A stretch of 64,000 nt of DNA. Origin: Micropterix aruncella. Lineage: Eukaryota > Arthropoda > Insecta > Lepidoptera > Micropterigidae. This document shows, one piece after another, positions 9,958 to 22,105 of this stretch. Within the stretch, counting starts at the first letter, position 1. Every line of letters begins with the position of its first letter. The position numbers and the translations under genes were made by a program. Location: positions 27,481,336 through 27,545,335 of the forward strand of contig OX155963.1 in assembly GCA_944548615.1 (NCBI GenBank), given 5' to 3'. The notes below the pieces were generated by a model. That model searched no databases and was not told the DNA's origin. It saw only the letters and a program-made list of their open reading frames with translations.

Positions 9958-9992
9958 CACGGAGAGAAATGTTTGATTGCATTTACAAAATT
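9958..9992 (+). repeat. Left terminal inverted repeat of the 12-kb element
   Basis: It begins CACGGAGAGAAATG (14 bases identical to the other end). TTTGATTGCATTTACAAAA follows, matching the right end at 16 of 19 positions after a one-base gap. Confidence 0.8.
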
Positions 9993-10379
9993 CCTTGTTA
10001 TCCCAACCAACGCCGACCTTAACTATAGGCCTCACGAAGAAATTGGTTGATTTTACCAATTCTTTTCAATTGCTTTTAATTGCTAATTCTTAGCAATTTT
10101 AATAAATACTCTACTTAAATATACAAAATGACATTTGTCAAATGTACAAAAGATTTACCAAACTTAATTCATTAAAATGTACAAATAATTTACATTATTG
10201 ATTGACTTTATGAAAAATCAGTTGGTTAGTTTTACAAAACTCAAATGTTATTATAACGATATTTTTTTATTATTTTTCTCTATATACGAAGTAAATATGA
10301 CAGACTATTTAGTCTCTTTTAAAGATAATCTCGATTAAAGTAATCAAGATTTATATGCAACTTCTGTAAAAGTTAATAA

Positions 10380-11500
10380 AGAGATTAGTTAAATTTAAGG
10401 TAAGAATTTTGTAAGTTTAACGGTGTTCTTGGGTATATTTTACTCATAATCTTTAGTATATTTCACAGTTATTTCTTAGTACGAGTCATCAATTTAACCT
10501 GGAATAAATGATATACTTTACTGATATATTTTTTTTAATCCAATAAATGTTTTTGTACAATTTATGAAATATTTACGATTAATAATATTTGTTTCAACCA
10601 CTATTTTTCGTAGATTTAATTTGTATTCCATTGTATATTTACTAATAAAGTTTTGTACATTCCATTATTATTTATTCGTTACTTTAAATAATAATATTGG
10701 TTAAGCTTGATTAACAATTTTTTGTATATTTAATTATTTTTTCTGTATAATTTATTTAAAATTATTTGCTAAAAGTACGAAGAATTAGTACTGTTTTCAA
10801 GTGCAAAATTCTTGTAGATTTAATCAGTATTCTAGGGTATATTTTACTATTAAAGTTTTGTATATCCATACTTATTTATTAGTATATTTCGTGTCTTTTA
10901 CTAAGAATCCTTCTTTTATTTAACTGATAATTTCTCGTACATTTAATGTATGTAGTAGTAAGATTTATTAGAAATTATTTGTCAAAATTACGAACAATTA
11001 TTACTGTTTTCAAGCAGTAAGTTTTGTAGGTTTAATCATTATTCTTGAGTATATTGTACTAATAAACATTTGTGTATTCCATACATATTTATTAGTACAT
11101 TTCGTTCCTTTTACTAAGAATCCTGGTTATATTTGACTAACAATCTCTTTGTATATTTAATGTAAAACCTTAGTATAATTTATTTGGAATTATTTGTCAA
11201 AAGCATGAAGAATTATTACTGTTTTTAACTGTAAAGTTTTGTAACTTTCAACACTATTCTTGGGTATATTTTAACAATAAAGTTTTGTATATTCCAAATT
11301 TATTTCTTAGTACTTTCGTACCTTTTACTAAAATTCCAGGATATATTTGTCTGTTAATTTTCGTACTATTTACGTGAACAAATTTGTCAAATTTACGAAA
11401 AATTATTATTATTTTTTCCAAGTTTAAATCAGTATTCGGTGGTATATTTAACTAATATTAATTAGTAGAGTTTGACCTGTTTTCTTAGTATAAACTTACT
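10380..11500 (+). repeat. Degenerate ~205-212-bp tandem array
   Basis: Related blocks (TATTCTTGGGTATATTTTAC and variants, then TTTTGTATATTCC, then ACTAAGAATCC) start at about 10,421, 10,625, 10,828, 11,039, 11,251 and 11,430. Spacings are 204, 203, 211, 212 and 179. It is very AT-rich and non-coding, and subterminal in the 12-kb element. Confidence 0.75.
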
Positions 11501-11890
11501 ATCAAAAATATTCTTACGATGTAAGGTTATTGGTAAAATATTTATGTAAGTATCATAAGTAATTTACAAAATTGTAAATATTTACAATTATTTTTTAAAG
11601 AAAATATTTAAACAAATACTTGTAAATATTTTCAATCTTGCAAATTATGACACATGCATTTTTACCGATAACCTTACATCGTTTACACATTATGTTTAGC
11701 AAGTTGTACTAAAAAATTGATTAAACTCTACTAAACTTTAGATATTAGTAAATTGTACCCCCGAATACAGATTAAAGTTACAAACAGTCAAAAAATTATA
11801 ATTGTAGGAAAAATTATTTCACATAAATTATTATAGGAAAACTAAACATTAAATTTACAAGAAATTATCAGGCAAACATAACGTGGATTC
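11318..11890. repeat. Large imperfect palindrome centred near 11,600
   Basis: Mirrored inverted pairs are CGATGTAAGGTTAT (11,517) with ATAACCTTACATCG (ending 11,681), TTAGTAGAGTTT (11,462) with AAACTCTACTAA (11,723), and CAGTATTCGG with CCGAATACAG (11,761). All share one centre. Weaker inverted similarity to the tandem array continues to about 12,150. Confidence 0.8.
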
Positions 11891-12713
11891 CTAGTGTAGA
11901 AAAGATACAAGACAAACTAAGGAACAAGTTTCGAATATATAACATTTTATTTTTAAAATATATCCAAAAATACTGATTAAAGTTACAATACAATTCAGTT
12001 GAAAACAAAACTTTTAACAATTTCAAATTAATTATACAAAAGCTTACACTAAATAAAAAGAAATTATAATTACTATAACTTGTATCCTTGATTCTTTACT
12101 CATTATTTCTAATCCATCATAAAATAGAGTATGGTGCTAAATAATAATAATAAAACAGAACAAGTAAAATTCGAAACATTTATTAATTATTAATAATCAT
12201 AAAACTTATAACCTAATTTAGCCTAATTTAGGGTGAGCTATGAATTATTATTCTGAATACCTACACATATTTTAACCTTTACAAAACCCAACTTAGTTAT
12301 CCAACTCGTACAAAGCAATTTTAAGGTAATTTAGAGAATTTCAATATACCAATTACGCAAGATTACAATACACTTGGTGGACCTACAATTATAAATTAAA
12401 GATTCGGCAGACTAAGGAACCTAAATCAATTTTTGGGTTTTGTCTATTTTTTTGCAAAAATTAAAAAAAAAACGAGACACGGAACTAACTAAATGACATA
12501 TGACAAACTATGGTTTATACAATGGAGACATAGGTTTTTTCGTCCATTCGGCGTTTCGTTTTTTTTAAATGTCAATAAAAAAATATTAGGTATTTTAGTT
12601 ATTAAAAAAATACCTTAATATAAAAATACCTAATAATATTTTAATTATTAAAAAAATACCTTCATCAACTTACAAACGTATCTAAAAGCTACAACATAAT
12701 TTTAAAGATAGGT

Positions 12714-19262: not shown

Positions 19263-19341
19263 AAATAAAATATATATAATAAATGCTTGATTAAACGAAT
19301 ATGTATTATAAATGTTAAGAAATCTCTATCAGTAATTATTT

Positions 19342-20214
19342 AAAAAAAACGGTTGTGTCACCCCAAGACTTTTCTGTTAAGTAGCCAGGGACTTAATTCA
19401 TCTGAATATTAATTTCATAAATAAAATCTATCAGTCAATCAATGACTTTTTCGACTTTTTCGAATTTTCCATGTTATGTCATGGTGATGGTGAAACTTGG
19501 CAGTTGCTATTTAAATTGAATGCGTATACAAACTTTTGGGTCTCTGGTGCTGACCGTTGAAGAGTTCTTTCTTCGGAAGGCAACCCAGGGTACATCAGCC
19601 ATGTCATGGTGGAACTTGAAAGTTGCTATCATAAATGAATGCGTATACGAAATTTTGGGTCTCTGCTGTTGACCGTTCAGGATTTCCCTCGTCGGGAGCC
19701 AACCCAGGGTACATCAGCCATGTCATGGTGGAACTTAGAAGTTGCTATCATAAATGAATGCGTACCTATAAAAATTTTTGGGTCACATCAACCCAGGGCC
19801 AACCCAGGGTACACATCAGCCATGTCATGGTTGAATTTAGAAGTTGCTATCATAAATGAGTGCGTATACAATTTTTTGGGTCCCTGCTGTTGACCGTTGA
19901 GAAGTTCCTTCGTCGGGAGCCCACCCAGGGTACATCAGCCATGTCATGGTGCAACTTGGAAATTGCTATCATAAATGAATACGTATACAAAATTTTGGGT
20001 CTTTGCTGTTGACCGTTGAGGAGTTCCCTCGTCTGGAGCCAACCCTGGTGGAAGGATTTCAATCACAATCAGCTCATGCCATGACCAAATGATGTCTGCT
20101 TGCCAAATTTCAGCTCAATCGGATGAAGCGTTTCGGCGCTATCGTCAGAGAATACACACACAGACACAGAAGAACGTCTATAATACTTTCCTTGAACAGG
20201 AAAGTAATAATAGA
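19342..20214 (+). repeat. Composite dispersed repeat inserted in the 91-bp array
   Basis: It begins CGGTTGTGTCACCCCAAGA (also at 24.75 kb, and reversed at 36.65 kb). It ends with the family 3' part: GCCAAATTTCAGCTCAATCG, AGCGTTTCGGCGCTATCG and ACACACAGACACAGAAGAACG-like sequence. In between are 119-bp units of the 118-bp family at 19,598, 19,717, 19,819 and 19,938. A 91-bp-array unit lies on its left (19,290-19,340) as well as on its right, so it landed inside the array. Confidence 0.75.
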
Positions 20215-21470
20215 ACATTAGAAAATACGATTGTGTTGGTTACATTATGCAGGTTATATTAATATTTCTTGATAAAGTTTACGAAATGGTTCCAGTAACT
20301 GTAACAAAAAAAAAGAGTATTACAAAATACCAATGTTTATGTATTTATTACTAAAACTTCATAAAATAATTTACAAAATCATTAAGTATTGGTAACAATA
20401 ATGATTTTTTTATAAGAAAATACTAATGTTTATGAAGTTTGTACAAATATTTGTGATACAATTGACGAAATGGCTTTGTTAACTGTAACAATAAAAGGGT
20501 ATTACAATATACCAATATGAATGTAGTTTATACTAATAATTCATAATAAAATCTACAAATTCATTATCGGTAATAATAATAAAGATTTTTTTATAAGAAA
20601 ATACCAATTTTTATGTTGGTTGTACAAATATTTATCATAACATTTACAAAATCATTATCAGTAATGATAACAAAGCCTAGAATATAAAAAAATAAGAATT
20701 AAATGTAGCTTCAACTAATATTTCATTATAACATTAACGAAACCGTTGTCCGTAATAATAACAAAGAATTGAATATTGGAAAATACCAGTATTTATGTTG
20801 GTTATACGAATATGTATAAATTTTTTTACGAAATGTTTAATCAATAATTATAACAAATAATAGAAAAGAATATACAAATTGTATTTGCTGGTTACACTAA
20901 TTTTTCATGAAAAAATAAACGAAATGCTTTTGGTAACTATAACAAAAAATGGAGTATTACAAAATACCAATGTATATGTAAGTTATACTAATACTTCTTG
21001 ATGAAATTTACGAAATGATTATCAGTACTTATAACAAATAAGGTACCTAATATTAAAATACGAATCTAATTTAGAATGCACTAATATTTCATAATAAAAT
21101 TAATGAAATTATTATTGGTAATAATAGCAAAGAATAGTAAATTAGAAAATACAAATGTTGATATTGGTTATACGAATATGTATTATAAAATTTACCAAAT
21201 CTTTATCAGTAATGAAAAACAATAACAGATATTAGAATATACGATTATATGTGTAGGTTACACAAATATTTCTTGATAAAATTTACGAAAATATTTCGGT
21301 AATAGTAACAAACATAGCGTATTATAAAATACCAATATTTATGTAGTTTATAATAACATTTATGATTAAATATACGAAATCATTATCAGTGACGTTAAAA
21401 AAAATTATATTGAGAAATACGTAGCTTGCACTAAAATTTCATGACTTTAACGTTGTGTACAAATTAATAT
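20215..21470 (+). repeat. 91-bp tandem array, 13 degenerate units
   Basis: TTTACGAAAT-type blocks are followed by GTAATAATAACAAA-type blocks. They start at 20,281, 20,373, 20,465, 20,555, 20,646, 20,737, 20,828, 20,919, 21,010, 21,103, 21,194, 21,285 and 21,374. Spacing is 89-93, mean 91. It is non-coding and lies near the right end of the 12-kb element. Confidence 0.9.
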
Positions 21471-22070
21471 TTAGTTATATGTGGGACCAAATTATTCTAA
21501 ATGTATGTATAACAAATAAAATGTCTTAATTATGCGACATTATTTGTACAATTAACCTTTAGTGTCAATTTTTTATACAGATAATACATATGAAAATTGT
21601 TTGTAATTTTTAATTGTATGATTTCGTAATTTGGACAAATAATTATTATAACATTAACACCGTTTATCTATTATTACTACGAAATTAAAGGTTTTTTATA
21701 TATTACGAAATACATTTGTAATTTTCAATTATATGATTTCGTAACTTTAACAGTAGCATATAGTAAAACTAACAATGTTTGTCAGTTGTTTATACAAAGT
21801 TCAAGGTTTCGTAAAAACAACAAAATTTTTTTTGTAATACCAACAACAAATTGTTTAATTTTAAAGTATTTTTATTGGTCTTTTACTTAAGTAATACTGA
21901 CTAAGACATTTTGTTAAAACTATCGGAAGCATTTGTAAATTTTATCAAACTTCATACTGTTAGTTCAACTTAAACCCGTTTCGTAAAACTAATAAATCGA
22001 TTTTGTAACTGGTTTAGTTGATATTACTAATTATTGATTAATTTTATGAATAATTATTTAACCAAATGTG

Positions 22071-22105
22071 GTTTTGTAAAATCAATGAAACCATTTCTCT
22101 CCGTG
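22071..22105 (-). repeat. Right terminal inverted repeat of the 12-kb element
   Basis: The reverse complement starts CACGGAGAGAAATG, identical to the left end. It continues GTTTCATTGATTTTACAAAA. Confidence 0.8.

Follow-up and report, generated by a model that had tools for sequence, protein, structure and literature searches.

A 12-kb gene-bearing insert in a LINE of Micropterix aruncella belongs to a recently active DNA-transposon family

DNA transposons of animals that lack a transposase are usually short. Plant CACTA elements have subterminal repeats, and Starships are giant gene-carrying transposons of eukaryotes. Long elements are on record for CACTA/EnSpm: Rim coding elements measure 14.1 kb on average and the animal TRC element SmTRC1 shows a 2-bp duplication in seven of 14 copies (PMC1636069), and families of 16-20 kb in a red alga offer a further size comparison (PMC6431247). 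Pack-TIRs number 370 in 55 of 100 animal genomes, with a median of four per species, according to one study (PMC8277862).

The element described here comes from Micropterix aruncella (assembly GCA_944548615.1, contig OX155963.1, positions 27,481,336-27,545,335 of the forward strand), a stretch of 64,000 nucleotides that we call the window. It resembles CACTA/EnSpm in its 2-bp duplications and in its inverted repeats, which start with CAC as in plant CACTA, and possibly in its subterminal repeats. The large size of the family also agrees with the lengths given above (PMC1636069, PMC6431247). Its ends, however, read CACGG and neither CACTA nor CCC, and the gene it carries is not a known transposase. 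As in animal Pack-TIRs (PMC8277862), non-transposon gene sequence lies within terminal inverted repeats, but here 68 complete copies belong to a single family that bears one gene, and the host parent of the gene is only a candidate. A length above 20 kb in one size class and the presence of cargo genes recall the giant transposons Teratorn and Polinton (PMC6431247). Unlike in Teratorn, Polinton and Starships, the sequence read showed no gene of the piggyBac, integrase, polymerase or tyrosine-recombinase kind, and the duplication has 2 bp. Among the open-licence matches listed, no publication on this element could be recognised from title or start of abstract.

With 68 complete copies of 10-23 kb, a recent spread and pieces of one gene in nearly all copies, the family gives a concrete setting in which to ask if large transposons with cargo are able to spread in animal genomes, if that cargo is of benefit, and what enzyme is responsible for their movement. 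Two size classes, an exon block that distinguishes them and ready-made empty sites make these questions testable.

Insertion into a LINE and copies elsewhere in the genome

The features of the window's copy are listed in the table. The first-pass annotation of this DNA had put the borders at 9957 and 22,106, with inverted ends and a duplicated CA on either side; exactly this arrangement was found, the inverted ends being 14 bp long and matching perfectly. Subterminal tandem arrays and a palindrome, also described there, are both present.

Features of the window's copy and of its LINE target (window coordinates)
Feature	Position	Strand	Remark
Whole element	9958..22105		12,148 bp, short class
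Left target-site duplication CA	9956..9957		flank comparison and empty sites
Right target-site duplication CA	22106..22107		flank comparison and empty sites
Left terminal inverted repeat	9958..9971	+	14 bp
Right terminal inverted repeat	22092..22105	-	14 bp
LINE target, 5' part	9915..9957	+	likeness to other LINE copies starts here: 5'-truncated copy
LINE target, 3' part	22108..22544	+	similarity to LINE copies
Left subterminal array	10633..11349		units of about 213-215 bp, shorter inner periods
Imperfect palindrome	11220..12007		arms 11220-11311 / 11916-12007, 80% complementary
Inner arms of imperfect palindrome	11560-11599 / 11608-11647		85% complementary
Gene exon 3 of window copy (DVALDDKQAKETWTWLKYNREPW...)	13137..13330	-	borders by eye; 80 genome places among matches listed
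Gene exon 2 of window copy (ETYHIPASS...)	14290..14450	-	borders by eye; 19/19 fetched copies; genome matches
Gene exon 1 (MDNANPTESQTLLNLMVEWGISQETIDVFK)	14651..14741	-	borders by eye from splice-like sites; 19/19 fetched copies
TA microsatellite	14916..15035		extra sequence at this point in other copies
Two TA arrays around 556-bp tandem repeat	17304..19278		three copies, third only partly alike
119-bp repeats	19487..20045
Right subterminal array	20246..21404		units of about 91 bp

When the unit and one CA were removed, the joined flanks indeed gave back a continuous LINE frame, as had been claimed, and this frame aligned without gaps over 50 residues with another of the window's LINE copies (E 2e-14). 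The empty sites that the annotation had proposed to look for exist: searched with the joined flanks, all 40 scored LINE copies (562 candidates) carried an intact, uninterrupted junction, and among the 36 rows that covered query bases 46-221, 35 had 176 bp per 176 query bases and one had 175. Likeness between the joined flanks and the LINE sets in no earlier than query base 46-49 (window position about 9915), so the target was a 5'-truncated LINE copy.

Other units with the same ends were found in the same genome. The 14-mer end occurs 110 times in 1.08 Gb (52 forward, 58 reverse; 100 of the places were listed), its backward-read control not once. A search with the 33-bp termini, allowing up to three mismatches, returned 83 left and 82 right ends, all with no mismatch (49 left, 47 right) or a single one (34 left, 35 right), and again none for the backward control. 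These termini pair into 68 elements on many contigs and in either orientation; no pair among the 68 spans less than 10 kb. The end sequence is CACGGAGAGAAATG or, in subfamilies, CACGGAAAGAAATG. Three of 54 exact 14-mers ran into unrelated sequence and were discarded as chance before the exon-3 places were counted. A scan of viral contigs for the 14-mer alone gave 93 stretches, likewise taken as chance.

In a set of 19 fetched copies, the window's and 18 others (parts of two of these read N), the flanks differ, starting exactly at the element ends. All but one show a 2-bp target duplication (TA in eight, CA in six, TG in three, TC in one), the exception being copy E07 with TT/TG, so that the duplications too recur outside the window. 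In the controls, neighbouring dinucleotides matched in 0-3 of 19 copies and pairing across elements gave 95 matches in 342, which corresponds to a chance of 1.4e-9 for the observed count. The left 1450 bp align in every fetched copy with a mean pairwise difference of 0.89% (0-1.6%); for the right 1100 bp the mean is 1.21% (0-4.1%). Ends shared genome-wide, 2-bp duplications and a left-end difference of 0.9% thus establish that the window's insert belongs to a DNA-transposon family that was active recently.

The carried gene and the two size classes

The spliced gene that the first-pass annotation had ascribed to the element exists, but it looks incomplete in the window's copy, where it is probably a deletion remnant. 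Whether the gene always lies between these ends had been posed as a check; exon 3 does so in 66 of the 68 paired elements. Exons 2 and 3 contain 11 coding differences over 20 sequences, ten of them amino-acid-changing and one synonymous, and the exons are less variable (5/194 and 6/165 variable sites) than the intron (64/959). A resemblance of the gene to SAM-domain 'SAMD3-like' proteins was considered but found no support in the searches. In the window's copy, neither the spliced model nor its exons taken singly nor other frames had a Pfam match above cut-off, and a longer model built on a long copy showed no SAM domain and nothing else above cut-off. Two protein searches of a large database (46 and 241 candidates) returned no match, and the Protein Data Bank only chance-level ones (best E 0.96).

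The paired elements fall into a short class of 49 (10,219-16,034 bp), to which the window's copy belongs, and a long class of 19 (21,080-23,361 bp). Two middle exons of the gene are present in every long element and in no short one. In the one long copy that was read, in part and with some of that N, they sit in 3.5 kb that fall between positions 4611 and 4612 when the element is numbered as in the window's copy. From this gene structure, with the exon block in the long class only, we infer that the short class arose by internal deletion from the long one.

A genome-wide search with the middle exons gave 24 copies in which all matched residues (100%) are identical, followed by five loci at 44-50% identity, each 1.88 Mb or more away from the nearest listed end. 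Since these are the closest copies off the element, apart from two loci on contig C24 discussed below, the comparison suggests that the gene is a long-term resident of the element.

Origin of the family and the enzyme that moves it

We consider it probable that the window's unit is a short-class copy of a young DNA-transposon family with large inverted-repeat elements, in which the short class is deletion-derived and moved in trans, the gene is long-resident cargo or an accessory gene, and the transposase is CACTA/EnSpm-like. Such an enzyme, coming either from the unread portion of the long elements or from another element, would bind the 14-bp ends together with the long AT-rich subterminal arrays, cut the element out and insert it at a target cut with a stagger of 2 bases, preferably at pyrimidine-purine steps; internally deleted short elements would be moved by it in trans.

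A second reading, possible although we regard it as doubtful, sees the 21-23-kb class as an autonomous giant animal transposon, from which the 12-kb class derives by deletion. The conserved multi-exon gene would be an accessory integral to it, or would belong to a transposition machinery not recognised so far. The family would then be a new lineage and not CACTA with hitch-hiking junk.

That the family is a Pack-type element, a non-autonomous transposon with a captured host gene as a role-less hitch-hiker, appears unlikely to a similar degree. The gene pieces between the ends, the lack of a detected transposase and the high share of amino-acid-changing differences in exons 2-3 would fit. An insert of about 1.18 kb in copies E01 and E18 bears trypsin sequence (a piece of E01 matched the Pfam trypsin family above cut-off), so the family does gain foreign sequence. 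The two C24 loci, 93-94% identical and each over 100 kb away from the nearest listed family end, could be the host parent or its remains: one has exons 2 and 3 at 23545169-23546840 and a partial middle exon at 23566908, the other exon 2 at 25036538. These pieces are scattered, however, the middle exon lying 20 kb from exon 2 as against 1.7 kb in long elements, and they are no less alike to the element than its own subfamilies are to each other, so that decayed elements are an equal possibility. C24 aside, the divergence and distance of the five remaining loci and the near-constant presence of the gene in the family speak against a Pack-type origin.

After a low-complexity filter, none of the remaining frames of 80 aa or more in the 19 copies, parts of two being N, was transposase-like, in agreement with the first-pass annotation. 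Transposase_21 (PF02992) had no genome-wide match at E <= 0.001 (21 candidates) in a search that was also silent in all 14 control genomes. A duplication of 2-3 bp is characteristic of CACTA/EnSpm and is what we observed, but of the ends CACTA (plants) or CCC (animal TRC) only CAC is common to CACGG. Helitrons have neither inverted repeats nor a duplication, and Polintons/Mavericks a 6-bp one; both differ from the present family. Ends and duplication are thus most like those of CACTA/EnSpm, of which the family is a candidate member. The label 'unrecognised type' given earlier holds insofar as no transposase fixes the superfamily, and was too cautious as to the anatomy, which is most like CACTA/EnSpm without a transposase of its own.

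Movement by a Tc1/mariner or PHIS (ISL2EU/Harbinger-like) enzyme is improbable. The duplications left by these superfamilies are likewise short, TA in Tc1/mariner and none or 1-4 bp in PHIS (PMC10045372), and TA is the commonest single duplication here; ten of 18 are nevertheless not TA, and neither transposase was noticed among the filtered frames. A segmental duplication or assembly artefact around repeats, for which the hard-to-assemble TA arrays and repeats and the N runs in some copies could be invoked, is hardly credible against 2-bp duplications and flanks that change exactly at the ends of the fetched copies, 40 empty LINE sites and pairs spread across many contigs.

Some smaller observations concern the interior. 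The motif TTTACRAAA, from motifs picked after the counts had been seen, occurs (outward-in/inward-out) 4/0 times at the left end, 3/6 at the right end and 2/0 in the middle, with 0.2-0.3 expected for each. Most long words are private to one end. We also weighed whether the segment between the first two TA arrays is inverted in some copies: it has the same orientation in all 17 other copies where it was found (E03 is not among them). An RLE-like fragment, ELAVPWEPNIPKDHECKLNKY, was rejected as a gene of the element and read as a nested retroelement piece, because it forms an open frame in 11 of the 19 copies and a weak RVT_1 match lies near it in the long copy (E 0.0019, below cut-off).

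Borders and insertion site of the element in the window

The 12,148-bp element carried inverted CACGGAGAGAAATG at both termini with CA on either side, as the first-pass annotation had described, and the exact 14-mer CACGGAGAGAAATG was present at two places in the window, both being these termini. Joining the flanks with one CA restored the LINE frame, with a gap-free alignment over 50 residues to another LINE copy in the window (E 2e-14). The claim that removal of the unit and one CA yields a continuous LINE was borne out in the whole genome as well: all 40 scored matches to the joined flanks (562 candidates) continued across the junction, at 96-98% identity and starting at query base 46-49. 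Among the 36 rows that covered query 46-221, 35 spanned 176 bp in query and match alike and one 175. These uninterrupted LINE matches are empty sites, and they fix both borders and the 2-bp duplication independently.

Copies, size classes and age

In the searched genome (1.08 Gb, 742 contigs) the 14-mer occurred 110 times and its backward control 0 times. With up to 3 mismatches allowed, 33-bp end patterns gave 83 left and 82 right ends, every one with 0 or 1 mismatch, and the controls gave 0. Ends in proper orientation, at most 32 kb apart and taken nearest first, formed 68 paired elements, 49 of 10,219-16,034 bp and 19 of 21,080-23,361 bp; 15 left and 14 right ends were left without a partner. 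No pair below 10.2 kb was found genome-wide with these patterns. Other units with the same ends, one of the checks proposed, exist in the same genome. The element belongs to a genuine transposon family that is young, large and gene-bearing, and the copy in the window is an ordinary member of its short class. The family is unusual in its large size, in having many copies without short forms among paired ends, and in its two sharp size classes, divided by the presence of two exons.

Eighteen further copies with exact matches to both 14-mers (E01-E18; five in reverse orientation) were compared with the one in the window. A 2-bp duplication flanked 18 of these 19 (TA 8, CA 6, TG 3, TC 1), the exception being E07 with TT/TG. 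Dinucleotides further outward matched in 0 to 3 of the 19 copies, and left and right dinucleotides paired across different copies matched in 95/342 cases (P 1.4e-9 for the observed duplications). Copies differed pairwise by 0.89% on average in the left 1450 bp and by 1.21% in the right 1100 bp, where the outlier E10 raised the maximum to 4.1%. Subfamilies had one common change in the left or right end (CACGGAAAGAAATG), which indicates that a variant end was still able to spread. In the fetched flanks of E04 (L108, L109), a 10-bp direct repeat TAGTAGGATA was seen on either side of the element, besides the 2-bp TA.

The carried gene

Exons 1, 2 and 3 were all present in 19/19 copies, with a 1-bp insertion in exon 3 of E06 and E08. 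At least 80 exon-3 places were found in the genome (150 of 342 candidates scored). An exact listed 14-mer end lay at fitting distance from 67 of the 80, 66 were within paired elements by the fuller 33-bp end lists, and 79 had an end within ~14 kb when the lists were read by eye, the exception being C24:23545169. Conversely, 66 of the 68 paired elements contained exon 3 among the matches listed. As to the proposed check whether the gene is always between these ends, it was so in those 66; the other two pairs had no exon 3 among the matches of this capped listing.

A long-class copy (L138, read in part) contained ~3.5 kb of extra sequence with two more coding stretches of the gene. A genome search with these stretches (65/65 candidates scored) returned 24 copies of the middle exon 100% identical over the matched residues, one partial copy at 93% on C24, and then five loci at 44-50% only. 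Of the 25 copies, 19 fell in pairs, exactly the 19 long ones, and none in the 49 short ones. By eye, exon 1 was in frame with the extra exon and not with exon 2 next to it in the window. We infer that the copy in the window holds a deletion remnant. The spliced gene claimed for the unit is real, but its version in the window appears incomplete.

The five distant loci were at least 1.88 Mb from every listed end and kept both coding stretches, with a stop in one; the C8 locus shared 34/68 and 22/46 residues with the element's gene. These loci could represent a family of host genes or a different mobile family. Two C24 loci, whose exons matched the element's gene at 93-94% identity and which had no listed end closer than 100 kb, may be degenerate elements or relics of a parent gene. 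A gene in nearly every copy, without an established parent, is a further unusual feature. Over exons 2 and 3, 20 sequences showed 1 synonymous versus 10 amino-acid changes, which would speak against purifying selection, but fewer sites varied in the exons (11/359) than in the intron between them (64/959). The gene may resemble SAM-domain proteins; no Pfam match to a SAM domain was found in it.

Putative mover and other content

The ends, duplications, empty sites and spread of the family are matters of observation. Insertion would be of the cut-and-paste kind, at pyrimidine-purine steps (17/18 duplications are such steps) and with cuts staggered by 2 bases, and the termini would be recognised together with the subterminal arrays. 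In agreement with the first-pass annotation, no DDE transposase was recognised in the 19 copies among the frames of 80 aa or more retained by a low-complexity filter, parts of two copies being N. A CACTA transposase domain had no match genome-wide, in a search whose control genomes were also without any match. A CACTA/EnSpm-type transposase would be the most likely mover because of the 2-bp duplication and the CAC ends; 2-bp duplications are made by animal CACTA relatives, according to passages in PMC4298943 and PMC1636069. The family is like CACTA in action, yet it cannot be assigned to CACTA; the label "unrecognised type" holds in part. The enzyme is most naturally sought in the long class, of which one copy was read in part (some of it N).

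E01 and E18 had an insert of ~1.18 kb in common, in which Pfam recognised a stretch of trypsin type (E 3.8e-13). Trypsin C-terminal sequence was followed by a stretch that by eye was CLIP-like, an order reversed relative to normal proteases, and ~10 bp TATCATCTTT stood at both edges. An RLE-like fragment formed an open frame in 11/19 copies, and open frames in E09, E11 and E14 looked by eye like fragments of a Helitron, a Penelope-like element and a LINE, respectively.

Coordinates of features in the window, in element copies and on M. aruncella contigs (C)
Feature	Location	Remark
Element	9958-22105	inside LINE
LINE copy aligned to joined flanks	30946-31332	
119-bp repeats	19487-20045	
Extra block of L138	between 4611 and 4612 in the window copy of the element	
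Trypsin-bearing insert	~6954-8130 of E01 (L102/L103)	also E18
Pairs without listed exon 3	C30:7912312-7922530; C7:20935558-20949139	
Distant gene loci	C9:26534282; C20:3741336; C8:23283752; C24:8231198; C32:3853340	both tested exons each
First C24 locus	C24:23545169-23546840	exons 2 and 3; partial middle exon 20 kb off (to 23567081)
Second C24 locus	C24:25036538	exon 2
Repeated-peptide frame	2663-2998 (-)	outside element
Repeat similar to L139	27362-27527	
Helitron-like frames	40678-43701; 43457-44806 (+)	overlapping

Three observations concern the window itself. The repeated-peptide frame seems by eye to have the same peptide as the 119-bp repeats, which suggests a dispersed repeat family. 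Another stretch resembled, at 74% over 168 bp, a part of long copy L139 which the window's element lacks, and is probably a dispersed repeat nested in the long elements. Two long frames resembled by eye a frameshift-broken Helitron replication/helicase protein.
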